Shown here piece after piece: positions 13,413 to 32,351 of a stretch of DNA of 34,662 nt. Every line of letters starts with the position of its first letter. Within the stretch, counting starts at the first letter, position 1. The notes under the pieces were generated by a model. It made no database searches. It was not told the origin of the DNA and was given only the letters and a program-made list of their open reading frames with translations. The position numbers and the translations under genes were made by a program. The DNA comes from Parvularia atlantis. Its lineage: Eukaryota; Opisthokonta; Rotosphaerida. The DNA lies in NCBI GenBank assembly GCA_943704415.1, contig CALSCO010000187.1, positions 1 to 34,662 on the forward strand, read 5' to 3'.

Positions 13413-16400
13413 ATGCACTTCGCCCACGGCGCGGCGCAGCGTCTCGGCGGCCCCGAGGGCTTCTGGGTCGATGCCGCGTCGTCGCCCGACGGCGGCCGGC
13501 TGTTTGCGCTGCTCGCGCACGATCGGCTTGCGCTGTGGACGGCCAAGGTGCGCCGCCGCCGCGATCGATCGAGAGATGCTGTTGCTTCTTAACCGGCGCT
13601 GCACAGCCGCGCCTCGTTGTGTCGCAGTACCGCCGCGGCCCCGAGTCGATCGCGCGAGACGGGACCAACGTGGCGCTCGTGTGGCAGGCCGATGGGACGG
13701 CGCTGGCGGTGCTGGTGCGCCCCCGCCGCCGACGCTCGATCTTTGTGCAGGCTGATCACGGCGCGGCATGACGCCACGTAGACGTCCAAGGGCGCCGTCA
13801 TCTGCATCGGCATCGACCCGGCCGACGGGACGCTTGCCGCGACGCACGTCTCGCTCGGGCATCTGTCCGGTGCGGTCGCGCAGCACTCCTCGCGGCAGCG
13901 CTCTGACGTCGTGAACGTCACAGGGCCCGCGTACGCCGACGGACGCGGCGTGCCCGCCGTCGCGCTCTCGGTGCGCTTCGTCGCGCGGCAGATGCAGGGC
14001 GCGCCGTCCGTGTTGCGGTGCGTTGCGTATGCGCCGAGTGTGGTGCGACGCTGATCGGGCCGCGACGGCAGCATTGTTGGCGGCGCAACACACGTCTTGT
14101 GCGTGCACCAGCGCAGCGTCAGCCTGATGTCGTGGCGCGGCATCCGCGAGCGGCAGGCGCACGCCTTTGCGTACCTCGGTGCGTGTGCGTGCGTGCAGCC
14201 ACTCTCGCTCACGCCTGGCTTTCATGCGCGCAGACGACCGCCAGACGGTCGCGCGCATCGTCGCCGTCGAGCCTGCGCACAGCTACGCACTGCTCATGAC
14301 CGACGGCAGCGTGCACCTATTGCACCTGCCACACACGAGCCGCGCACCCGCCACTGCTGCCGCGGCCGCTGAGCCTGCCCCGCCGTCGCCGTCGCACGCG
14401 GACGTCACGCCGATCTGGACGCCGACGTCGACCGAGCGCCGCGCGACCGAGATCGCCTACAACGCGCCGCTGCGCCGCCTTGCCGCGGGCATGAGCACGT
14501 GCGTGGTGTGCACGATATGAGGCATAGCTGAAGTCGCATACAGCGGCGACGTGCTCCTGTTTGCGCACGTGCAGCGCGAGTTTGTCCCGCTGCCGACGCT
14601 GCCCGGCGCGCGCCACAGCACCCCCGCTGCCGCCGTGCGCGCGCTCGCGTGGTCGTCGGACGGACTTGCGCTCGCCGTGGGCTGCGTGCCGCTGCACCTG
14701 TCGTCGTCGTCGGTGCCGCCATCGCCGCAGTCGCAGGCCGCCGGTGCTTCGCAGCAACCGCCGTGCTCGCTGCTGCTGTACAACGCGTTTGGCACGGAGC
14801 TCGCGACGTCACAGGCTGCGGGCGACACAGCGCAGGAGCGACGAGCGTGCGTGACGCGCGCGCGCGCGTGCCCGGCTCGTTGTGGCGCTGACCGCACGAC
14901 GAGGCGCGCAGTCCGTACGAAATGTTCCCGGACGGCGTGCGCACACTCTTCTGGGGCCCGCAGTCGCTGCACCTCTACGTCGGCACGGCGCCCCGGCAGC
15001 GGCACAGCATCGACGGTGCGCAGCCGACCGCTCTTGCGCCTGTGCCCTTACAGCGCGGCAGGCATGACCGAGCTGTCGCTGCCGTCGTCGACCGTGAGCG
15101 TGAGCGAGCCCGCGACGCCGCGCACGCTGAGCAGCGGGAGTGTCGCCACCACCAACGGGACCGCTTCGCGCCCCAGCGTCGCGCTGCCGTCGGTCTCGCC
15201 GCTCGGCGGTGCGGCGGCGCAGCGCGGGGACCTGCTCGCGCCACCGACCTTCTACGCGCTGCCGCTGGCCGTGTCGACGCTGGCAATGGTGTTGTCCCCG
15301 GTGCGCATGCGCGTGCCGCCTGTGCCGCTGCGTGCGCGCTGACGACCGCGCACTTGTCCAGACCAACATGCGGTATCCGCTGCTCGTGTGCGACGACGCG
15401 CTACTGCTGGACGTGCACGCGACCGAGTCGCAGCACACGCTGCGGCCGGACGTGCGCCGCTGGCGCCAGCTGCAGATCACGCCGATGTACCTGGCCGAGA
15501 ACTGGCCGGTGCGGTACGTCGCGGCGCACCCGCAGGGCACGACGTTCGCCGTGGCCGGCACGCGCGGCTTTGCGATCCTGAACGCGGCGCTGGACAAGTG
15601 GAAGCTGTTTGGCAACTTGCAGCATGTGCGCGTACGTACGCAGCTGTGCAGCTCGCTGACGGGGACACGCAGGAGCGCGACTTTGCCGTCGTGGGCGGTC
15701 TCGCGTGGCTGGGCGACCTTTTGGCAGCGGCTGTGCAGGACGAGCAGACGAAGGAGCACGAGGTGCGAGCTGGCGTGCCGCTGCTGCGCTGCGTGGCTGA
15801 CGCGCGGCCTTCGGCGGCAGCTGCGCTTCTATTCGCGCCTGCAGAACCTCGACGCGTCGCTTGTGCTGTGGGCCGAGAAGCTCGCCGCGCCGTGTCAGTG
15901 CCTACTCGCCACAAGCGCGACCACGCTGCTCGTCTACACGGCCGACAACATCTTGCGCGAGTACGCGATGACCGCGGCCGGCGCCAAGCTCTGGAAACGT
16001 GCGACACCGCTGGCGACCACCGCATCGCTGTGCACTGATGCCGCGCGCAGTCGAGCAGGTGTACTCGGCGTCGCTCGCCAACGCGCTTAGCGACCCTGCG
16101 AGCGTGCGCGGCGTCGCGTTCAGCAGCACGGGCGACGGTGCGCTGAAACAGCGCACGTGCAACGAGCTGACGTTTGCTGCGGCGCACAGCGGCGGAGCGC
16201 ACGGTGCTGGCACTCGTCGGTGGCGACGCACTTCTGTTCAACCCGCAGGTGTGTCTGCTGCACGCTGCTACGCGTGGTCTGACAGTCTGCCGCGCAGTCA
16301 CACGAGCCGCCGCGCGTACTGTCGAGCGAGGCGCTGTTCTGCAGTGTCGAGCACGCGGGCGAGGAGGCGCTGCGCGGGTCTGTCTGGGTGGCCGAGAGCG

Positions 16401-18837
16401 GGTGGATTAAGTTTTGGCTCGCGTCGGCGACCGGGTTCGTCTGCTCGCATGGCAGCCGCCACGGTCAGCTGACACGCTCGTGACCAGGCCCGACCCGGCC
16501 AAGTTTCCCGTCGACGCCGTGCCCGTCGGCATTGTGCTTGACGGCATGGTCGCGGTCGGCGCCGGCAACACCTGCGCGCTCGTCGACGGCCTCGCCGGCC
16601 CGCTGGTCGACCACCGCATCCGGCTGAGCGTGCGCGGCCTCCTTGCGCGCCGTAACGACGACCGCTCACACCGCTCACATATCACCAGACGCACCTGTTC
16701 CTGCACCACATTATCAGCGCGCTGCTGTTTGACCGGTGCGTGTGCGTTTGTGACACTCGCAGTGTCCCACACACGCTGCTCGCAGCAACCTGGCGGACGC
16801 CACGCGCCTCGCAAAGGGCCTGCGCGAGTCCGTCTTCTTCACGCCCGCGCTCGAGTTGCTGCTGCACCAGTCGCTCGAGGCGGCGCCTGTCCCGCGTGTG
16901 CGGCCGGTGTCGACGGGTGCGATCGTCGCACTCAACGCACAAGGAGCGGCTCACACGGTGCGCAGGCGGGCTGAGCCACCTCGAGCTCGCGATCCAGTTT
17001 GCAGAGCAGTTCCCACAGTACTTGGACGTGCTCGTGCAGTGTGCGCGCAAGACCGAGGTCGACCGCTGGGAGCTCCTGTTCCGCTTCTCGGGCAACCCGG
17101 CCAACCTGTTCCGGGTGCGCGCATGCGCGGGGCAAGAGCATGACGGCGCTGAGACGTTGGTGCGCAGGAATGCCTCGCGACGGGGCGGTTGCGCACGGCG
17201 GCGCAGTACCTGCTCATCCTGCAGAACCTCGAGTCGGCCGAGACGAGTGGCAAAGTGCCGGGCACGTGTGTGCTGGGCGCCGTTGTCTCACCTTCGCGGC
17301 CCGCGCAGACGGCGATGCAGCTGCTTGAGGCGACACTGGCCAACGAGGACTACGAGACCGGGCGCGAGCTGTTGCGCTTCCTGATGACGATATTTGGCTG
17401 CGACGAGCTGTTTTCGAGCGGGACACGCAGCGCATCGGCAGGGCTGCACAGGTCGGCGGCAGGAGGGCGGAGGCCGCACACTGGCACGTCAAGCGGTGTG
17501 CCGTCGCCCGTGCACACGGTCTACCAGCAGCAGTCGCCGGACGGGTCGCTCAGCGTGACGTCGCAAGACATGCAGCGCAACAAGGTGCGGCGGTGCTGTG
17601 CGGGCGCACGGTGCGCTGACTGCGCGTACACGCAGCTCTACCTCGAGATCCTGCTGGCGCGGCACGCGCGCAAGCTGATGCAAAAGGGTCGCCTGCGCTC
17701 CCTGCTCGCGTTCGCCGAGGCGCTCAGCCTGCCGCTGCACACGTTCCTGTGGCGCGAGCAGTGCGTGCCGTCGCAGGTGCTGCGCGCGGGCGGACGCTGA
17801 CGGGGCGCACAGCAATCGCGCTGCGGTCGTCGAGGACTACCACGCCGTGTTCCTGTCGCTGCACGAGCAGTTTTTGTGGCACTACCCCGGTGCGTGCCCG
17901 CGTGCGGACGACGACGTCTGCTGACGGGAAGGCAGACGCGGGCGTGCCTTCGGCGGTCGAGGCGCGCAGCCGCGGCATGACGATCACTCTGTACGAGAAC
18001 AGCGCGGCGACGGACGGGTGCGCGCGCGCGTCTGCCGCTGATGGTGCCTGGCTGCTGACCATGTGTTGCAGCGAGTCGTTCGCCACCGCGGTCGACTTTC
18101 ACCGCGACAGCAAGGCGCGCGAGCTCAAGTGCGTCTTTGAGCCGTTGTGCAGCACGCATGGCCTGACACGCGCTCGCGTGGGCGCAGAGAGCTGCGCGAG
18201 GCGGCCGAGCAGGCCGAGTGCCTGGACTACGTCGTGCTGGTCGGAACTATGCTAGGCGACGTGCGCGCAGTCGCCCTCGCGCTGCGTGATGTGCCGCCGC
18301 CGGCCGTGTTGGCGCAGGCCGTCGTCGAGCAGGAGTCGAGCGTGCCGCGGCTGCAGCTGCCGCAGCGCCTGACGAGTGGTGCGTCGACCCACGCGCCCAC
18401 GTTCTCAGCCACGCTGCTGCCGTCGTCGCCGCGCGCGGCGCCGACGCCGTCGTCGTGGCTCAGCTGGATCTTTGGCGCGCGCGGCAGCGGCGACGCGGCG
18501 GCCGGCGATGTTGCGGACCACTTTGCCGCGCCGTCGTCGCCCGAGGACAAGGAGCCCTCGCCCGACGTCTACCACGGCCTGGACCAGCTCAGCCCGCGGC
18601 CGCGGCGCGCGCCGTCGTCCGCCGACGAGACTGAGAGCTCGCTGCTGCTCACGAGCAAGACGTCCGGGCGGCCGCCCAACACGTGCGTTGCTCGTTTGGT
18701 GGCGGAGCGCAGCTGACACGTTCGCTGTAAGGGCCGAAGAGCGGCGCACGCTGTTTGCGGACCTGGTCGAGCGCGTGGGCAGCGCGGGCTACCGCGCGTT
18801 TCGCGACCTTGTGCTGGCTGCGCTCGCGGGCGCGTGA
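13413..18837 (+). CDS. RIC1: RIC1 homolog, Rab6 guanine-nucleotide exchange complex subunit
   Basis: Ric1 with Rgp1 activates Rab6/Ypt6 at the Golgi (family knowledge). Start MHFAHGAAQRLGG resembles the RIC1 start (MYFLSGWPKRL). N-terminal beta-propeller-like segments follow: LFALLAHDRLALWTAK, VRALAWSSDGLALAVGC, MFPDGVRTLFWGPQSLHLYV. Strong matches: YLAENWPVRYVAAHPQGTTF with ALDKWKLFGNLQ, VVGGLAWLGDL, and GSVWVAESGWIKFWL. In the C-terminal RIC1 domain: FAEQFPQYLDVLVQCARKTE, FRFSGNPANLFRECL and AQYLLILQNLESAE, then LARHARKLMQKGRLRSLL and ECLDYVVLVGTMLGDV. More than 20 short introns. The region 18380-18690 is Ser/Pro-rich linker. Stop TGA is at 18835-18837, only 31 bp from the convergent Lunapark-like stop. 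Some exon borders between 14820 and 15060 and between 17880 and 18170 are less sure. Confidence 0.88.
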
Positions 18838-18868: not shown

Positions 18869-19317
18869 TTATCGGTTGCCTGAGGGCGTGCGGCGCGTGC
18901 TCGGGCGCTGCGGCGTCTGCGCGGCGGTGTTGGGTGCGGCAGCGTCGAGTGCGGCCGTGGCGGCGGCGGGCGGCGGCAGCACGGGCATCTGCCGGCCAAA
19001 CTGCGCCTCGAGCATGTGCACGTAGCGCTCAAGCTCGGCGTTGCGCTGCCGCAGGCGCTCGTTCTCCTCTATCACGGCTGTCTGCGCGTTTGCGGCTGAG
19101 CCTTGTGCGCGCGCAGCTGCAGAAGCGACAGAGCGCACCGGCGTGTCGCCCACGAGGAACGACATCAGCCGGTCGACGGCCGTCGGCGGCGACGCGATAG
19201 TGGGCGCAGCCGTGCGCGGCGTCGCGAGGGTCTCGGTGAGCAGCGCCGACGCCGGTACGGAGCCTCGTGCGGTCGCGGGCGTCTGCGCCGTTGTCGCGGC
19301 GATCTGCATCGGCGTCA

Positions 19318-19353
<36 letters not shown>

Positions 19354-20026
19354 TGTTGGGTGAGAGGACGTTGCGCCTGGGCGAGGCGGTCGCGGGCGAG
19401 GCGGGGCGAGGCGGCGCCGGGTGGTACTGGTCAATCAGGCGCTTGCGCTTGACGTACTCGGGGTCGCTGCTGATGCGCCCGATGATCTCCTCCATCTTGG
19501 CCTGGAGCTTGCGCCGCTGCGCCTCTGCGACACGTGTCGGCGATGTGTTTCGCGATGTGTATCGCGATGCATCGGCGATATCTGCGCACCCGACTGCTGC
19601 AGCTGCGAGCGGAACACGGCCTCGAAGACCTGGTACAGCACTGTCGCCAGCAGCGGCACGGCGACGGCCATGAGCAGGCGCTCGTACCGCTGCAGCTCGT
19701 GCATCGTGTACGCGACGGCCCTGGCGGCGCACGCGGTCGGCACGGGCGCCTGGCAGCAGCAGCGCGCGCCGCGCACCACGCCAACGGCGCCAGCAGCAGC
19801 CCGATCAGCACGATGCTCTGCCGGAATGAGCCGCGCAGGCGCAGCAGCTGCTCTGTCCACGCCTTCTCGCGCTCGATGCGCGCGCGCACAGCGTCCAGCT
19901 CCTGCTCGAACCGCTCCTGATCGGCGCCGCCGCGACGTCAGCGACCGCCGCAGCGGCGCGGCAGCGAGCGGCACGGCGCGGCACCGTCGCGTCCTTGGGA
20001 CGGAAGAGGGCCACGACGTTGCCCAT
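18869..20026 (-). CDS. Lunapark-like ER protein lacking the zinc finger
   Basis: Lunapark stabilises three-way junctions of ER tubules (family knowledge). Exons give MGNVVALFRPKDAT (Gly2, possible N-myristoylation as in Lunapark), an acidic/basic helix ERFEQELDAVRARIEREKAW, then two membrane segments, FRQSIVLIGLLLAPLAW and LLMAVAVPLLATVLYQVFEA. Next is the conserved basic coiled coil EAQRRKLQAKMEEIIGRI followed by DPEYVKRKRLIDQY, matching the segment after the second helix in Lunapark. A low-complexity linker contains 11 Gln. AVDRLMSFLVGDTP matches the family's ALDRIVEYLVGDGP, which normally leads straight into a CxxC...CxxC zinc finger. Here no Cys pairs follow. Instead VIEENERLRQRNAELERYVH forms a predicted coiled coil to the stop TAA at 18869-18871. 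Introns include 19917-19984. Confidence 0.78.
19319..19351 (-). repeat. Pure (CTG)11 on plus strand = (CAG)11 polyglutamine
   Basis: Eleven uninterrupted CTG triplets lie within the Lunapark-like coding sequence and encode an 11-Gln run on the minus strand, right after SPNN. A pure triplet run in coding DNA is expected to be length-variable. Confidence 0.9.
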
Positions 20027-20143: not shown

Positions 20144-22392
20144 TCACTGTGACCGCAGGCTGAGCGCGTCGTCGGCCGTGGCGGGCGGGGCTGCGGCGTC
20201 CGTGGGCGAGTCGGCGTCGGGCGCGTGCAGCGAGCGAATGATGATGTCGGAGCTGGTGAGCGCGCCCTCGGCGTCGCGCAGCGTGAGGAGCGCCGAGACG
20301 GTCTGCTCGGGCTCGCCGCGGTCTGGGCGCGGCGCGCAGCGCGTGAGGCTACTACTGGCGGCGCGGAGCGAGCATCACACGCGCACCGCTGCCCATCTTG
20401 CCCGCGCTCGAGTCGGTCGCGCCCTGCACCGAGTTGGTTTGCTTGGTCGAGAAGTGGAACGCGTTGATGCGGAGCGACGCGACGACGGTCGCAAAGATGC
20501 CCGTGACTGTGTCGCGCGCGCGTGCGTGAGGTGCGCGGTCGTGCGAGGGGAGGCAGCTGCAGAGCACACGGAAGAAGAGCTGCAGGTACGTGAAGATCAT
20601 GAACAGCACCGGCGTGACGAACGCAAAGCTCATCACGGCCAGCAGCGCCACGAACGTGAGCAGACACTGCGCGGGCGTGCGCCGCATGTAAGCAGCCGTT
20701 GCGTTTGTGCAAGCGCGAGGCGCACCAGCGCGGTCATGATCATGAGCACGGTGATCTACGCGCGCGCGGGGCGCAGAGCGGTCAGCACGGCGCGCGCGCA
20801 CACGCTGCGCGCACCTTGTAGATCATTGCAACGTTGTGCGGCGCGATCTTGGAGAACGCGCTGAGCCGGTGCAGCAGCCACCCGCCAAAGCCAATGAAGC
20901 ACAGGCACATGAGGAGGATCAGCACGCCCACGATCGTGAAGCTCACGTTGGACAGCTCCGCAATGGGCGTGCCGTGCTCGAGCGTGAAGAAGTTGACGTC
21001 AGCGAACGCGAGCAGTACCACAAACACCACAAAGCTGCGCAGGCCGGGCGCGCGTCAGCAGCGGGCAGGCGCGCACGCTGCCCAGGCCACGCACGAGATT
21101 GGCACAAACGCGCGCGCCCCGGCCGACATCCAGCCGAGGGCGCCCTGCGGCACGCTCGCGACAACGCGCACCCATGCCGACAGCAGCAGGCTGATCATGA
21201 ACATGAGGCAAAAGTAGCTCTGTGCGCGGTGTCAGCAACCGCGCCGTTATCGCGCGCAGCAGAGTGCGCGCACCGTGAAGCGCAGCGTGAAGAACTGCCC
21301 AAAGCTGAGCCGCCCGTCGTACCCGCCGTAGTCGATCGCAGCCTCGATGAACATGACTGCGCGCGGGCGCGGTCGGTGAGCGCGGGCGTGGACGGGCAAG
21401 GCGGGCGCGCGAGAGCGACGCACAGAAGGTGCCGAAAAAAAGCAGCCAGTAGATCGCGTTGTTGTACTGCAGCACGCGGTACCGCCGCCCCTCGACCGAC
21501 ATGTTGAGCACGTTGACCGCGAGCGAGAGCAGCGCAAAGCCGCCGGCGATCAGGCAAGTGAGCACGCGCAGCGCGACGTAGGCGGGTGACCGCGCGAGCC
21601 GGACCCAGTTGCCCTCGTCTGCGGCTGATTAGCAGCACGCAACAGCAGCAGCAGCCGCGCGCGCACACACACCGGACGTGACGGTGACGAGCAGCGAGGC
21701 GTTGTGCGTGTCGTACAGCGCCTCGAGCGCGACGCCGTCGTCGTAGCTGATCATCGTGAGCGCGTGCCCTGTGCGCGCACATTCGTCGGGCCGCATCGAC
21801 CCACGCGAACGAGCGGGCCGCACCGCGATCGACGTAGCGCGTAACCACGCCGAGCATGTCCTGCCAGCCGGGCTCCCAGCCGGCGGTGGCCGGGAAGGCG
21901 AAGACGGCGACGTCGGGCGCGAGGGCCGCAAACTCAGGCGTCTCGATGATGCTCCCGAACGACGCGCAGCCGGCTGTCGAAACGCGCATGGCACGCACGT
22001 GAGACGCGGACGAGACGCGCACGAGACGCGGCCGCACCGGCCTCCGCCGCCTTAAACTGGAAGAGCACGACGCCGCCTTCTGCGCCCGTCCCCGCTGCCG
22101 TCGCGCGCACGGCCTCAGCACCACGACGAACGACAGCAACGCGCACGCGCGGACGCACCCTGCGGTACGCAGCCGGCCGCGAGCGCCACGACGCGCAGCG
22201 GCGCGCTGCTGACGACGTCGTACTGGGCGGAGGCGTGGAAGAAGTCCGCGTTGGCGAAGCGGGCCGACGTCCCTGCCGCGCGCGCACCCACGTTGGCGTC
22301 CGCGCACGCGCACGTCACGCACCGAGCACGGCGATCTCGGCGCGGGCGACGGCGACGGCGGCCGCGGTCGCGAGCAGCAGCAGCCGCCGCAT
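20144..22392 (-). CDS. Signal-peptide multi-pass membrane protein (about seven TM), unrecognised family
   Basis: The ATG at 22392 opens MRRLLLLATAAAVAVARAEI, a signal peptide. An ectodomain of about 200 residues follows (SARFANADFFHASAQYDVV, TPEFAALAPDVAVFAFPATA, WEPGWQDMLGVVTRYVD, YDDGVALEALYDTHNASLLV). About seven hydrophobic helices come next: LTCLIAGGFALLSLAVNVL, AIYWLLFFGTFCAVMFIEAA, YFCLMFMISLLLSAWVRVV, ISFVVFVVLLAFADVNFF, FTIVGVLILLMCLCFIGFGG, LCFIGFGGWLLHRL leading on to ITVLMIMTALCLLTFVALLA, and FVTPVLFMIFTYLQLFFR. The hydrophilic tail (HFSTKQTNSVQG... ALSLRSQ) ends at TGA 20144-20146. Ten or so introns, each phase-consistent. The layout is like a GPCR-type or PA-domain membrane protein, but I do not recognise the family. 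It is divergent from the type II membrane gene across a GA-repeat region. Confidence 0.72.
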
Positions 22393-22747: not shown

Positions 22748-23770
22748 ATGGGTACCAAGTCTGCGGAACACAGCGAGCGCAAAGACGAGGCATCTGAAGG
22801 GCAGCAGGACGAGAGCGCCGAGTCAGCGCAGGGTGCGGTTGGCACGCGGTTGGCAAGCTCTCGCTTGTCTGAGATGCACACCAGCAGGACACGCGCGCGC
22901 GAGCGAGGGTGAGGGCCGCACCAAGAAGGAGCTCGAGCAGCTGGCGAAAAATCCTGCCGAGAACCTGGATATCCAGGACAAGCGCAACAGTGAGGACGTT
23001 AGCGACAGTGAGGACGTTAGCGACTGCTCGACGACTCTGCTCGTCGCTCTCGTGCTCTTGGTCGGCGTGGTCATTGGCATGGTTATCGGGCACTTCTACG
23101 GCGCCGTGCTGCTGCCGCACGGTGCGTGCGGCATCTGCCGCGTGCGCGCACTCACTCTGTGCCGCAGTGTTGAAGCTTGCTGGCCGTCCCGCGCGAGGTC
23201 GGCGTGGTGACGATCAGCCACGGCGAGCACGGCTCGCTCGCAGCGGCGCTGAACGCCACGGCGTCGTACGCCGGGGAGCCGTGGTGCTTCGTTGACATCG
23301 ACCCGGCCTCGCCGCACCTGCTCTCGCCGCAGATGCCGTTGCTGCTCGCGATGTTTTCGTTCGGCGGCGGCCGGTGGCACACGGATTTCAAGGATGCGCT
23401 CGCGGGCAGCGACGGCAACACAGACATCGGCGAACTGTGCCGACGTGCGCTGCCTGACTGCCTGCCTGCTGCGGCGTGCGCACAATGACGGGTGCGCGCA
23501 GGCCACGAGGCCGCTGGAGGCAAGCTGTTCCTGGCCAACACGCGCTCGACGCGCAAGGTCGACCAGCTGCGCTACCTAGACACGACCGGCTCGCCGGACG
23601 TGCTGGGCGTGACGCTGCACAAGGTCGTGTACCTGCGCTTTGACGGCGATACGCACGGCTTCCACTTTAGCAACATGGCGAGCGCGCCGGTGGACGCGTT
23701 CGACCGCGAGCAGGTGCAGGCGCTCTTTGCGGCGCTGTCCAAGGCTGTGCCGGCGACCAAGGCCCAGTAG
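22748..23770 (+). CDS. Type II single-pass membrane protein, unrecognised
   Basis: Four exons are joined by phase. Exon 1 from ATG 22748 reads MGTKSAEHSERKDEASEGQQ, very polar. The intron 22833-22887 then leads into EGRTKKELEQLAKNPAENLD. A perfect 18-bp tandem duplication (22989-23006, 23007-23024) encodes SEDVSD twice. One membrane helix follows (TTLLVALVLLVGVVIGMVIG), with no signal peptide, so the C-terminus should be lumenal or outside. The lumenal part reads LLAVPREVGVVTISHGEHGS, YAGEPWCFVDIDP, GGGRWHTDFKDALAG, LFLANTRSTRKVDQLRYLD and VVYLRFDGDTHGFHFSNM. The intron 23126-23175 uses an internal GTGCGG donor and a GAAG acceptor to keep frame. Stop is at 23768-23770. I do not recognise the domain. 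An alternative start at 22626 (ATGTACCGC) is less likely because its frame passes through the CAGACGCCGC repeat. Confidence 0.65.
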
Positions 23771-23843
23771 ACGACTTTCCAGTTTTCTGGTGTGTCTTGT
23801 GTGCCGCGCACATGCCAAACACAACAAAGCGCAAGTGCCCGTG

Positions 23844-25338
23844 TCACAGCTCGCTGCGATCGCCCGCGCGGACGCCCTTCGCCGCCCGCTCGAGATCATG
23901 CAGCACAAACTGCTCGGCGCTGCTCATGACCGAACTGAGCAGGCGGTACAGGCCCAGCTGCGTTGCGAAGGGGACGGTGCGGTCGTTGCCGGTTGGCTCG
24001 CGCCCGTCAAACACGTACACGTCGCCCTCGAAGATGCCCGCCAGGGCCGCCATCTGCTTGCGCGCGTCGGAGATGCTGGAGGTCGAGTAGTCCCTGTACT
24101 GGTTGAGCAGGTGCGAGACGTAGACGATCGGGCGCAGGTTGAGCTGCACAAGCTGCGAAACATACGTGCGCAGCTTGGTCTTGCCCCCATCGGCCGCCTT
24201 GAGGTAGTCGGCCGGCACGACGACGATCGCGGCGTGGCAGATGCGCGCGGGAGCATGGGGTCTCTGCTTCTCGACGATGTCCAGGCTGCTGAGCTGCTTG
24301 AGCGATGCCGAGTCGATCTCGCCGTTCTTGATCACGCTGAAGTCGTCGGGAATGAGGCCGCGGGCGAGCTTCTCGAGCAGGCGCGGCGGGCCCAGGTACA
24401 CGCGGTCGTTGCCGATACTCAGCCCGGGCGTGTCGACGACGCGGACCTGCTCGACCGACCGCAGGCTCATGTACATGATCGTGCCTGTGGTGTGGTCGAT
24501 CCCGCCAAACGCCGCGCGGGCCTGCGCGTACACGCCCGAGAGCAAGCTCGTCATCAGGTGGTTGATCAGCGTCGACTTGCCCGAGCCCTGCGGGCCAAAC
24601 ACAAGGATATTGAAGTGCGCTGCGCCGGCCGAGTTCTTGGGCACGGGCCACGACCGGAGGTGCTCGGCGATGAGGCCTGGTGCGGCGGTCAGCGCGCGGC
24701 CAACCGCGGCGGCCATTGAGCGCCGCACCTACGCTCAGCTTGAAGCCCGGCGTGAGCAGCTTGTACGGCTTCTGCTGCGGGTCGGTGACTGAGAACGACA
24801 CGACCTCGGGCAGCTTGTCGATCTTGGCCGTCGGCAGCGGGTGCAGCTTGATCTCGGCGAAGTAGGCGTAGCTCTCGTCAGCGTAGGCGGGGATCTGCCT
24901 GTGGATAAGGTGCCTTGCCGGCTGGTAGTACTCCTGGTCGTTGCCGATCCTGCCGTGCGCGCGGGTGCGGCGTTCAGGTTGGCGCACATGCGCGACAAAG
25001 CTCGAACGGCGCGAAACGCACAGCAGCACTGACCGCGCCGGCAGCTCGACGTGGTGATCATAACCTTGATCGTCGTCGGCTCGCTCAGGCTGGTCTGGGC
25101 AACCTGCCTGCGGGTCGCGCGGCTCAGCGGCGTGCGTCGGCGCACGAGCCGGCGAGCGCGCACGTCGTCTTGACCGCCACGTTTGAGTTGGCCACGAACG
25201 ACGGGCCGAACCAGCCCGCCGCCTGCGCCCGACGCGGTCAGTCGGCGGGCCACCGCTTGTGCCCAGGCCCCGGCCGCGCACAGCGCACTGTACCAGGACG
25301 ACGGCCGTGATCACAAAGCCGAGCGTGAGCCACGCCAT
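23844..25338 (-). CDS. Membrane-anchored IFI44-like P-loop GTPase
   Basis: ATG 25338 starts MAWLTLGFVITAVVLVQC, a signal-anchor-like helix. A segment of about 110 residues follows (FGPSFVANSNVAVKTTCALA, SLSEPTTIKVMITTSS, NDQEYYQPARHLIHRQIPAY, FKLSVG). The G domain reads FNILVFGPQGSGKSTLINHL (P-loop), HTTGTIMYMSLRS (G2/T), QVRVVDTPGLSIG (G3, DxxG), then GLIPDDFSVIKNGEID, ARICHAAIVVVPADYL and RPIVYVSHLLNQYRD at the G4 position. It ends RAAKGVRAGDRSEL, with TGA at 23844-23846. The order and the loop between G3 and the CHAAIVVVPA strand resemble the vertebrate interferon-induced IFI44 family (there ILLIGPIGAGKSS...CDSLGL...CVAFVFDAS...THVD), from memory. A classical NKxD is absent, as in that family. 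Function in this organism is unknown. Confidence 0.68.
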
Positions 25339-25913: not shown

Positions 25914-27856
25914 ATGGACGACGACTTTGACGTGATGGACACGAGCGACGACGTGGACGTGGCCGATGACGAGGACGAGGAGCTGCAGCCCGGGTTCGAC
26001 GCGGACGACTCGGCGCTGGGGTTCATGGACGTGACGGCCGACAAGAACAAGAAAAAGGACTTTGAGGTCGACTTCACGGTCTACACGGCCGAGGACCTGG
26101 CCGGGATGATCCGCAAGGACAACCAGCAGGTGCGTGACGTGGCAGACGCGCCGCCGGGCGTCTCTCACTCACGCTTGCGCCGCCGCGGCCAGCTCGCCGG
26201 GCTGCTCGGCCTCGGCGAGGAGGACGCCTTCGCGCTGCTGCGGCATTTTCGCTGGAAGCAGGACCGGCTGATCGAGATGTACATGGACAACTCGGACGCG
26301 ATCCAGGCCAAGGTCGGGCTCAGGGCCGCGCAGGGCCCCGCCGCCGGCGCCAAGCCGGGCATCGCGATCCGCGCCGTGTTCACGTGCGAGCTGTGCGTCA
26401 ACGACGGTGCGTCGCACGTGCGCACATGACGTCTGCGGTGTTCTCACGCAAACAAACAGAGCCCAACCAGCGCGTAGTCACGCTCGGCTGCGGTCACATC
26501 TACTGCGCCGCGTGCTACGCGCAGTACATCCGCGCGCGCGTCACGCGCGACCAGGACTCGCGCATCGGGTGCATGGCCACCAAGTGCAACGTGCTCGTGC
26601 CCGAGTCGCTCGTGCTCCAGCTCTCCCCGGCCGACGTCGTCGCGCGCCTGCGGCGGCTGCAGCAGGACCAGTTTATGCGCGACCACGAGTACCTCAAGGT
26701 ATGCGGATTGGCGACGTGGGGCGCATCCGGCGCGTGCACAACATGCTCACGCTCGCCCGTCGCAGTGGTGCCCAGCGCCTCGATGCGAACACGTGGTCGA
26801 GTGCCACGTGCCCAACAGTCAGCTCAACCGCATCGTGCCCACGGTCGTGTGCCATTGCCGCCACGCCTTCTGCTTCGGCTGCGGTCTCGGCGACCACCAG
26901 CCCGCCATCTGCGCCATCGCCAAGAAGTGGCTCAAGAAGTGCGCCGATGACTCGGAGACGGCCAACTGGATACACGTCAACACGAAGGAGTGCCCAAAGT
27001 GCCACGCGACGATCGAGAAGAACGGCGGGTGCAACCACATGAGCTGCAAGGTGCGCGAGCATGCACTCTCGTCGCACGTCGCGCTCACGGCTGAGTGCGC
27101 GCGCTTTTGCAGAAATGCAAGCACGAGTTTTGCTGGGTGTGCCAGGGCCCCTGGTCTGAGCACGGTTCGTCGTGGTACACGTGCAACCGCTTCGACGACA
27201 AGTCGAGCGAGGATGCGCGCAGCCAGCAGGCCAAATCGCGCCAGGCCCTCGAGCGCTACCTGCACTACTTCCAGCGCTACCACAACCACGACAGCTCGGC
27301 CAAGCTCGAGCGCGACCTGCTCGGCAAGATCGAGAAGAAGATGACGATCATGCAGGTGCGGGGCGCGCGCTCGCGGCGTCGCGTGGGTGTGCGCTGATGC
27401 GTTTGTGCTGCAGGAAACGACCGACCTGTCGTGGATCGAGGTGCAGTTCCTCAAGCGCGCCGCCGACACGCTCTTCCAGTGCCGCATGACGCTCAAGTGG
27501 ACCTACGCCTTTGCGTACTACCTGAAGTGCGTGCGCACGCCCGCGCGAGCGGGCGCACGGTGTGCGCTCACCGCGGGAGCGCGCGCGGCAGGAGCTCGAA
27601 CCAGACGCACATCTTCGAGGACAACCAGCGCGACCTCGAGATGGCCGTCGAGAACCTGTCGGGCCTGCTCGAGCAGCAGATCGACCGCGACACGATCGCG
27701 CAGCTGCGCCAGCAGGTGCTCGACAAGACCGTCTACGTCGCGTCGCGGCGAGAGGTCCTCCTGTCGGACTCGGCGCAGGGCCTGCTCGAGGACCGCTGGC
27801 AGTACAACGAAGACCCGGCCGTCTCGGCGGCGGGCCCAGCCCCCAAGTCATCCTGA
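25914..27856 (+). CDS. Ariadne-family RBR E3 ubiquitin ligase
   Basis: RING-between-RING ligases of the Ariadne class act with neddylated cullins (family knowledge). ATG 25914 opens an acidic N-terminus ([20 protein letters not shown]). A UBA-like segment follows ([20 protein letters not shown]). RING1 is [29 protein letters not shown]; the IBR is [15 protein letters not shown]...[12 protein letters not shown]; the linker is [21 protein letters not shown]2 is [34 protein letters not shown], with the catalytic Cys in GGCNHMSC. The Ariadne domain is [30 protein letters not shown] and [19 protein letters not shown]. The intron 26700-26764 must end before TGGTGCCCAGCG to restore the IBR Cys pair. 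All zinc ligands appear present. Stop TGA at 27854-27856 is 64 bp from the convergent TAF9 stop. Confidence 0.94.
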
Positions 27857-30851: not shown

Positions 30852-32351
30852 ATGGCGCGTCTCACGTGGTCGCTGCTCGCCCTCGCGCTCGCGCTGCTTG
30901 TGGCGGCGGCGGCGCCGACGCGCGCGCTGCCGGTGTTCGAGGAGCTGCGCGGCCCCGTGGTGGGCAACGGCTACGTCAGCCTGGTGCTGCCGGTGCCTGC
31001 GAACGCGGCCGCGTACAACGCCGTGTACAAGGGGGGCATCACCGTCAAGCTCGAGGCGTCGCCGACAAACTGCCTGTCGGCGTGCGTGACCGACCTGCTG
31101 CGCGCGTACCCGGACATGGGCTCGTGGACGCGCGCGGGCGTGTGCCGCGCGTACCTCCCGAGCGACGGCCAGACGACCGTGGCGCTGCGCCCGGGCTTTG
31201 CGCACATCACGCTGCACAACCCGCAGACGACCCAGTGCCTCTACACCGTGACCTACTCGGGCGAGCTGTGCGACGCCAGCGACGCGTACGGCCCGGACTG
31301 CGAGCCGCGCACGGCCAAGCCCGCGGGCCAGGTCACGCTCCAGCCCGGCCAGGTGCTCACGTTCGAGGGCGTGTACTCGACCGCGTCGCGCGTGCCCCGC
31401 TACGCCTTCGCCAAGATCCAGGTCGAGCCCCTGGCCGACGGCGGCAACGCGACCGTGGGCAACAACAACGTCACCATCGCCGCGCGCGCCTACGACCACC
31501 CGCGCTTCGACTATGAGGCGTTTGACAACAAGACCCAGGTCACCGTCCCGGCCGCCGGCGGCGTCGCTGTGCAGGTCGACGTCGAGCTGACCACGCCCCC
31601 GCGCACGTTCAACATTGCCACGGTCAAGATCCCGCTCTTCTTCTCGGTCTACGCCGACCCGGCCAACACCGCCTCGGTCACGTTCTCCGTCGTCAGCGTG
31701 GGCGAGGTCGACTGCGCGATCGAGTACTACGGCGGCCGCGACTGCAACATCTTCACGCCCATCACGCCCGACTCGAACACGTACAACCTCTCGTCCACGT
31801 ACACGCCCAACCCGATCGTCGACACGCTCGACCGGCTCGACTTTAGCGTGGGCATGCAAACGCTCTACGGCCAAATGGTCGCGTACCTGCGCTTCGGCAA
31901 CGTGCCCGTGCCCTCGGCCAACCTGTTTGATGTGTTTATCCCCATGTCGGCAGCGTCGGGCACGGGCACGACCGACGTGCGCTTCTACGCGAGCGGCCTG
32001 GGCGTCAACCTGAACGACACGGCCATCTACGTCGCGTTCTATTCGGCCGACGAGCGCCCGGACGACCAGTACCTGTACTGGATGAACCACAACTGCCCCA
32101 ACCGCGACTGCGGCGGCAACGGCATCTGCACGAGCAACCGCTGCCTGTGCAACGAGGGCTTCCCCGCGCCCACGTGCTCGTCCGACGGCCTCGACAATCC
32201 GACCTTGCTCCCGCCCGCTGCCGGTGGCCGGTCCTCGTCCGAGAACTTCCTGATCGCGCTGGGCGTGCTGGGCGCGGTGGGCCTGGTCGCGCTCTGGGGC
32301 TACCTGCACTACCGCCGCAAGAGCGTCGCGGGCTCGTACAACAACCTCTGA
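30852..32351 (+). CDS. Intronless type I membrane protein with EGF-like motif
   Basis: A single open frame of 499 residues. ATG 30852 gives the signal peptide MARLTWSLLALALALLVAAA. The ectodomain of about 440 residues is rich in beta-type sequence and N-glycosylation sites (NVT, NKT, NLS, NDT), for example FAHITLHNPQTTQCLYTVTY, CEPRTAKPAGQVTLQPGQVL and DVRFYASGLGVNLNDTAIYV. The EGF-like motif NCPNRDCGGNGICTSNRCLC follows, then NEGFPAPTCSS. The membrane helix FLIALGVLGAVGLVALWGYL is followed by a short basic tail, HYRRKSVAGSYNNL. No splice-like signal interrupts the frame, in contrast to every other long gene here. It is probably a surface or secretory-pathway protein. The large domain is not recognised. 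Confidence 0.85.
   Translation: MARLTWSLLALALALLVAAAAPTRALPVFEELRGPVVGNGYVSLVLPVPANAAAYNAVYKGGITVKLEASPTNCLSACVTDLLRAYPDMGSWTRAGVCRAYLPSDGQTTVALRPGFAHITLHNPQTTQCLYTVTYSGELCDASDAYGPDCEPRTAKPAGQVTLQPGQVLTFEGVYSTASRVPRYAFAKIQVEPLADGGNATVGNNNVTIAARAYDHPRFDYEAFDNKTQVTVPAAGGVAVQVDVELTTPPRTFNIATVKIPLFFSVYADPANTASVTFSVVSVGEVDCAIEYYGGRDCNIFTPITPDSNTYNLSSTYTPNPIVDTLDRLDFSVGMQTLYGQMVAYLRFGNVPVPSANLFDVFIPMSAASGTGTTDVRFYASGLGVNLNDTAIYVAFYSADERPDDQYLYWMNHNCPNRDCGGNGICTSNRCLCNEGFPAPTCSSDGLDNPTLLPPAAGGRSSSENFLIALGVLGAVGLVALWGYLHYRRKSVAGSYNNL

Follow-up and report, generated by a model that had tools for sequence, protein, structure and literature searches.

A divergent Lunapark-like protein of Parvularia atlantis with a leucine zipper in the place of the zinc finger

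The window analysed here is a stretch of 34,662 nucleotides from the Parvularia atlantis assembly GCA_943704415.1 (contig CALSCO010000187.1). Its minus strand carries a gene between 20026 and 18869, with the ATG at 20026 and the stop codon at 18871-18869, whose product resembles Lunapark, a protein that shapes the endoplasmic reticulum (ER). The gene converges with a RIC1 gene, whose RIC1 domain scores 50.4 bits in 17153-17797 and whose frame ends at 18716 in the gene finder's model, or at 18837 should its final exon be the last open frame. Joining the reading frames of the Lunapark-like gene requires introns 1-3 (all GT-AG; 68, 56 and 65 nt), and there are probably four short GT-AG introns in total. 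The product has about 303 amino acids; the gene finder's model gives 297, and retention of intron 4 would give 322. The features of the gene are as follows:

19985..20026, minus strand: exon 1, encoding MGNVVALFRPKDAT, the Gly2 myristoylation-type N-terminus
19917..19984, minus strand: intron 1, 68 nt, GT-AG, placed by the frame change and the gene finder
19777..19916, minus strand: exon 2, encoding coiled coil 1 (heptads inside residues 11-41) and the larger part of membrane helix 1 (about residues 45-68)
19721..19776, minus strand: intron 2, 56 nt, GT-AG, placed by the frame change; the gene finder favours a donor at 19779, 3 nt earlier
19590..19720, minus strand: exon 3, encoding membrane helix 2 (about residues 75-97) and the start of coiled coil 2
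19525..19589, minus strand: intron 3, 65 nt, GT-AG, placed by the frame change and the gene finder
19418..19522, minus strand: coiled coil 2 / helix-turn-helix AQRRKLQAKMEEIIGRISSDPEYVKRKRLIDQYHP, from AlphaFold2 helices and alignment to reconstructed human and Arabidopsis Lunapark sequences
19181..19417, minus strand: disordered linker rich in Pro, Ala and Gln, including a poly-Gln stretch and seven S/T-P sites; the majority of its ten-residue blocks have a pLDDT of 43-56
19139..19180, minus strand: AVDRLMSFLVGDTP, the LVGD motif region, which precedes the zinc finger in Lunapark; motif pattern found once in the window
19082..19138, minus strand: probable intron 4, 57 nt, in frame, from the GC3 test and the gene finder (the acceptor favoured there ends at 19067)
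18998..19081, minus strand: leucine zipper TAVIEENERLRQRNAELERYVHMLEAQF, occupying the zinc finger's place, from the heptad score and an AlphaFold2 helix
18869..18997, minus strand: C-terminal tail, mostly disordered, and stop codon, from sequence and AlphaFold2

The 57-nt stretch at 19138-19082 lies directly 3′ of the LVGDTP codons, begins with GTGCGC and finishes with GCGCAG. GC3 was counted in 10 of its 19 codons, compared to 280 of the 303 codons elsewhere in the coding sequence (Fisher p = 1.4e-5). None of the 285 19-codon windows of the coding sequence is as low, the lowest having 15. Due to this low GC3 relative to the exons and to the GTGCGC and GCGCAG ends, the stretch is most likely a fourth intron that leaves the frame unchanged. 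The sequence-only reading had translated through it, and we do not follow it in this respect. A gene finder based on composition, with no donor motif built in and trained on the Lunapark-like coding sequence minus the 57-nt stretch plus one other gene of the window, also opens intron 4 there and places its acceptor 15 nt further on. Since the stretch is likely intronic, the zipper probably abuts the LVGDTP motif directly at the intron boundary and probably occupies a last exon of its own. In this exon 5, GC3 is coding-like (61/70 codons).

From the N-terminus, the protein is composed of Gly2, coiled coil 1, two membrane helices, coiled coil 2, a Pro/Gln-rich linker, AVDRLMSFLVGDTP (residues 220-233), the zipper (residues 234-261) and a disordered tail. 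The N-terminus, MGNVVAL, matches the PROSITE-type myristoylation pattern. Residues 11-38, which form coiled coil 1, rank second among the heptad regions of the protein. Hydropathy alone gives two peaks: the 19-residue windows that exceed 1.6 begin at 45-50 and at 75-79. For coiled coil 2, the best heptad windows start at 95-97, and the coiled coil runs into YVKRKRLIDQYHP. The linker is rich in Pro, Ala and Gln and stands where the P domain sits in animal Lunapark. AlphaFold2 was run on the last long exon as a single sequence, with no alignment as input and with intron 4 translated, giving a mean pLDDT of 62.7. Coiled coil 2 (2-19 and 21-33 of this model; pLDDT about 89) and most of the zipper were predicted as confident helices, and little else was confident. 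The Gly2 N-terminus, the two membrane helices, the coiled coil and the LVGD motif had been reported in Lunapark order by the sequence-only reading, and the peptides quoted for them are indeed encoded on the minus strand where it had placed them.

To compare the protein with Lunapark, human LNPK and Arabidopsis LNP1 served as yardsticks, both as reconstructed sequences. The human letters agree with K11, K23, K34, K40 and K100 as printed for Lnp in a passage of PMC6739345, and at 11 of 13 coiled-coil positions printed for Xenopus Lnp in a passage of PMC6238531. Residues 1-140 align end to end with residues 1-141 of the reconstructed human Lunapark with a score of 63. This score was reached by none of 5000 full shuffles, by 8 of 5000 within-segment shuffles that keep the helix composition, and by none of 257 140-residue pieces of other open reading frames in the window, the best of which scored 38. 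R9, K11 and T14 are identical in place to this human sequence. At the human core positions 18-38 of the same alignment, six of seven residues are hydrophobic, human L28 being replaced by Glu. Against the reconstructed Arabidopsis Lunapark, the match taken alone is weak, with a score of 52 (reached by 16/5000 full shuffles, 66/5000 segment shuffles and 0/257 pieces). The LVGD region matches both yardsticks separately, with 0/5000 shuffles scoring as well against human and 1/5000 against Arabidopsis. A pattern LVG[DE]xP, drawn up from the reconstructed Lunaparks and the protein itself, occurs once in the six frames of the window.

Identity to these yardsticks is low, and a search of the PDB with the whole protein gave no relevant match and none to Lunapark. 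A Pfam scan, which might have assigned the protein to another family, placed no family above its cut-off and gave no Lunapark match; the weak matches below cut-off are to other families, the nearest being PF08990 (20.1 vs 20.9). As far as we know, Pfam covers Lunapark by its finger alone (PF10058) and has no model for the N-terminus. The protein shares with Lunapark, LNPK and Lnp1 of animals, plants and fungi the Gly2 motif, coiled coil 1, the paired membrane helices predicted as a hairpin from hydropathy, coiled coil 2, the S/T-P linker and LVG[DE]xP, all in identical order. In contrast to these proteins, it has neither the Cys4 zinc finger (PF10058) nor the LNPARK strand nor any cysteine, and carries a zipper instead. 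Since the Cys4 finger, a defining feature, was looked for and found to be absent, we would not class this protein among the canonical Lunaparks; it is best read as a divergent homologue, a variant form. Saccharomyces Lnp1p, which according to PMC3817238 has neither the myristoylation motif nor LNPARK, is accepted as a divergent Lunapark, but it retains the zinc finger that is missing here.

The spliced product contains 0 cysteines, the LNPARK motif is absent from its sequence, and PF10058 is not listed for it at an E-value limit of 10, where the HMMER filters drop most matches above about 0.1. The sequence-only reading had likewise seen no Cys pairs in place of the finger. We also considered the zipper as a decayed finger (AVIEEN vs ALICxN). 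In this comparison, 3126/5000 and 1656/5000 shuffles score as well, and the tail holds no vestige of a finger; we therefore gave up this reading.

The zipper itself consists of four heptads with V, L, L and L at the d positions and N, N, V and F at the a positions, and thus has the four helical heptads with Leu or Val at d of the leucine zipper class. By a home-made scoring, its best heptad score is 17.1. Among 20,000 shuffles of the tail none attained this value, and among 20,000 shuffles of the 28-mer 20 did; a GCN4 zipper, as reconstructed, scores 20.0 on the same scale. The heptad-like helix noted before the stop by the sequence-only reading is thus non-random. The AlphaFold2 helix has a pLDDT of 93-94 over the middle 20 residues (151-170 of the modelled stretch). 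Four heptads, mostly Leu at d and Asn at a are also found in GCN4/bZIP-type zippers. The Asn residues at two of the a positions speak for a parallel dimer. Unlike those zippers, the one described here sits on a membrane protein and has no basic DNA-binding region upstream. A bZIP transcription factor was therefore rejected: the zipper is preceded by LVGDTP or, should intron 4 be retained, by a stretch rich in Ala and Ser. Searching the PDB with the zipper gave no relevant match (best E 0.46; C/EBP alpha at E 4-5). The closest Pfam match to the 51-residue C-terminal piece is the polyketide-synthase docking coiled coil PF08990 (E 0.0005; 20.1 bits, just below its cut-off of 20.9), which we read as generic coiled-coil similarity.

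The role of the finger in known Lunaparks is disputed in the literature. Animal Lunapark self-associates through the finger region, and a proper tubular ER is not restored or induced by four-Cys mutants or by proteins from which the finger or LNPARK has been deleted (PMC6588657, PMC3817238). On the other hand, finger-less Lnp still bound full-length Lnp and still gave stacked bicelles (PMC6238531). In COS-7 cells, localisation to junctions was unaffected by deletion of the finger (PMC6588657), whereas loss of localisation is reported by other work, as stated in PMC6739345 and PMC6238531. Yeast Lnp1p without the finger and the following part still inhibited Sey1p fusion (PMC10679814), and in S. 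pombe both localisation and growth in the absence of Lem2 depend on the lunapark domain (PMC7264229). The starting claim that the finger supports self-association thus stands for the finger region in animals, but self-association does not belong to the finger alone, given the binding of finger-less Lnp to the full-length protein (PMC6238531). No report of a natural finger-less Lunapark was found among the titles, abstract openings and passages covered from the open-access literature.

The observed anatomy, homology signal, absence of cysteines and zipper pattern are probably explained by a Lunapark homologue that has lost the Cys4 finger and the LNPARK strand and instead carries a four-heptad zipper, probably on its own last exon, directly after LVGDxP. 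For such a protein we infer a membrane topology, a location in the ER, a partner GTPase, homodimerisation and a replacement of function as follows. Gly2 and coiled coil 1 would tether the N-terminus to the membrane and to an ER fusion GTPase, the two membrane helices would form a hairpin, and coiled coils 1 and 2 would pack in cis. The C-terminal zipper would then pair two molecules in parallel and so provide the self-association of the finger, and the zipper-paired protein would still hold ER three-way junctions. That the zipper supplies self-association is the simplest reading, because the rest of Lunapark is kept and a strong zipper is found at the finger's place.

It seems less likely, though it deserves some weight, that the finger was simply lost, that the zipper is a late extension or has a different coiled-coil protein as its partner, and that self-association relies on the linker together with coiled coils 1 and 2. 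A zipper on its own can bind a different protein, and the results cited above on full-length binding and stacked bicelles (PMC6238531), on unchanged junction localisation in COS-7 cells (PMC6588657) and on the inhibition of Sey1p fusion (PMC10679814) all fit this reading. The failure of finger mutants to restore or induce a normal tubular ER (PMC6588657, PMC3817238) and the need for the lunapark domain in S. pombe (PMC7264229) argue against this, and so does a strong heptad zipper at the very position of the finger. A natural protein with a zipper at the finger's position offers a direct test of what the finger does: should the zipper give function back to a finger-less Lunapark, dimerisation is the finger's job. 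More tentatively, a zipper exon might have replaced a finger exon in one Lunapark lineage, the essential role of the finger might be met by simple dimerisation, and some protist 'losses' might be finger-less Lunaparks missed by domain-based surveys. In the available passages of one survey (PMC9804665), Lunapark is listed for metazoa, plants, Dictyostelium, Cyanidioschyzon, Cyanophora and Trichomonas, with none in stramenopiles and alveolates; its criteria included retained domain architecture, so that surveys of this kind may score finger-less Lunaparks as losses.

We regard it as quite improbable that a finger exists and was missed, be it in an alternative 3′ exon, through misassembly or in a second full Lunapark gene elsewhere. 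An alternative finger exon was sought in the three minus-strand frames from 19200 to 15000. A single CxxC...CxxC match was found, at 17017, antisense to RIC1 and by eye unlike a Lunapark finger. The convergent RIC1 gene leaves scant room downstream, and the coding-like GC3 of exon 5 also speaks against a different 3′ end. The assembly (16,251,876 bases, 16.25 Mb, in 616 contigs) was searched in six frames with the PF10058 profile, a search that is blind to introns. There was no match on the contig of the Lunapark-like gene, and the best match in the assembly, with 15.4 bits against a cut-off of 24.2, is a PHD-like finger by eye. Searching the assembly with exons 4-5 returned the own locus and two weak matches (E 0.002 and 0.006), one of which (L004) is a CAG-repeat stretch. 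With these two queries, no second Lunapark was seen. Short or exon-split domains were detected where present: UBA_ARI1 was found at 40.4 bits, and REEP/DP1/HVA22 matches above cut-off were found on contigs C540, C103, C395 and C494, some of them split over exons. These REEP/DP1-type matches on four contigs indicate that tubular-ER machinery is present. Reticulon, RHD3/Sey1, GBP/atlastin and N-myristoyltransferase (NMT) were not found in the assembly, which does not imply their absence. NMT is near-universal and expected in any eukaryote. Because it was missed as well, the assembly-wide negatives, including that for PF10058, are only moderate-to-weak evidence, and the division into 616 contigs adds to the case for a missed finger. 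Convergence of an unrelated two-helix, coiled-coil ER protein on the Lunapark layout is more improbable still: it would fit the low identity to the yardsticks and the lack of a curated model above cut-off, but two separate stretches match in the correct order and the motif pattern occurs only once in the window.

With six peptide patterns each, viral contigs as well as bacterial and archaeal genomes were searched for relatives, and none was confirmed. Rfam gave no match in the window at gathering scores.

Across six gene regions of the window (among them 14224-18716 on the plus strand, 25914-27856 on the plus strand and 21989-20144 on the minus strand), 47 introns were called, with lengths of 44-95 nt and a median of 59. 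The donor is GTGCG in 25 of these 47, which is an unusual choice of 5′ splice site for a GC-rich genome. GTAAGT occurs 0 times in the window, and GTGAGT occurs 3 times on one strand and 4 times on the other (about 9 expected each).

Adjoining the Lunapark-like gene, the minus strand at 20144-21989 encodes a predicted multi-helix membrane protein, two unspliced pieces of which have no Pfam match. By eye it resembles the GPR107/TMEM87 class. A P-loop GTPase gene follows at 23572-25338 on the minus strand (MMR_HSR1, 30.2 bits; cut-off 21.9), with a hydrophobic N-terminal segment by eye. On the plus strand, 25914-27856 encodes an Ariadne-type RBR E3 ligase with a UBA_ARI1 domain, for which a second match lies on contig C138. 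A single-exon protein of 499 amino acids is encoded at 30852-32351 on the plus strand, with one weak EGF-like match below cut-off and hydrophobic segments at both ends by eye.
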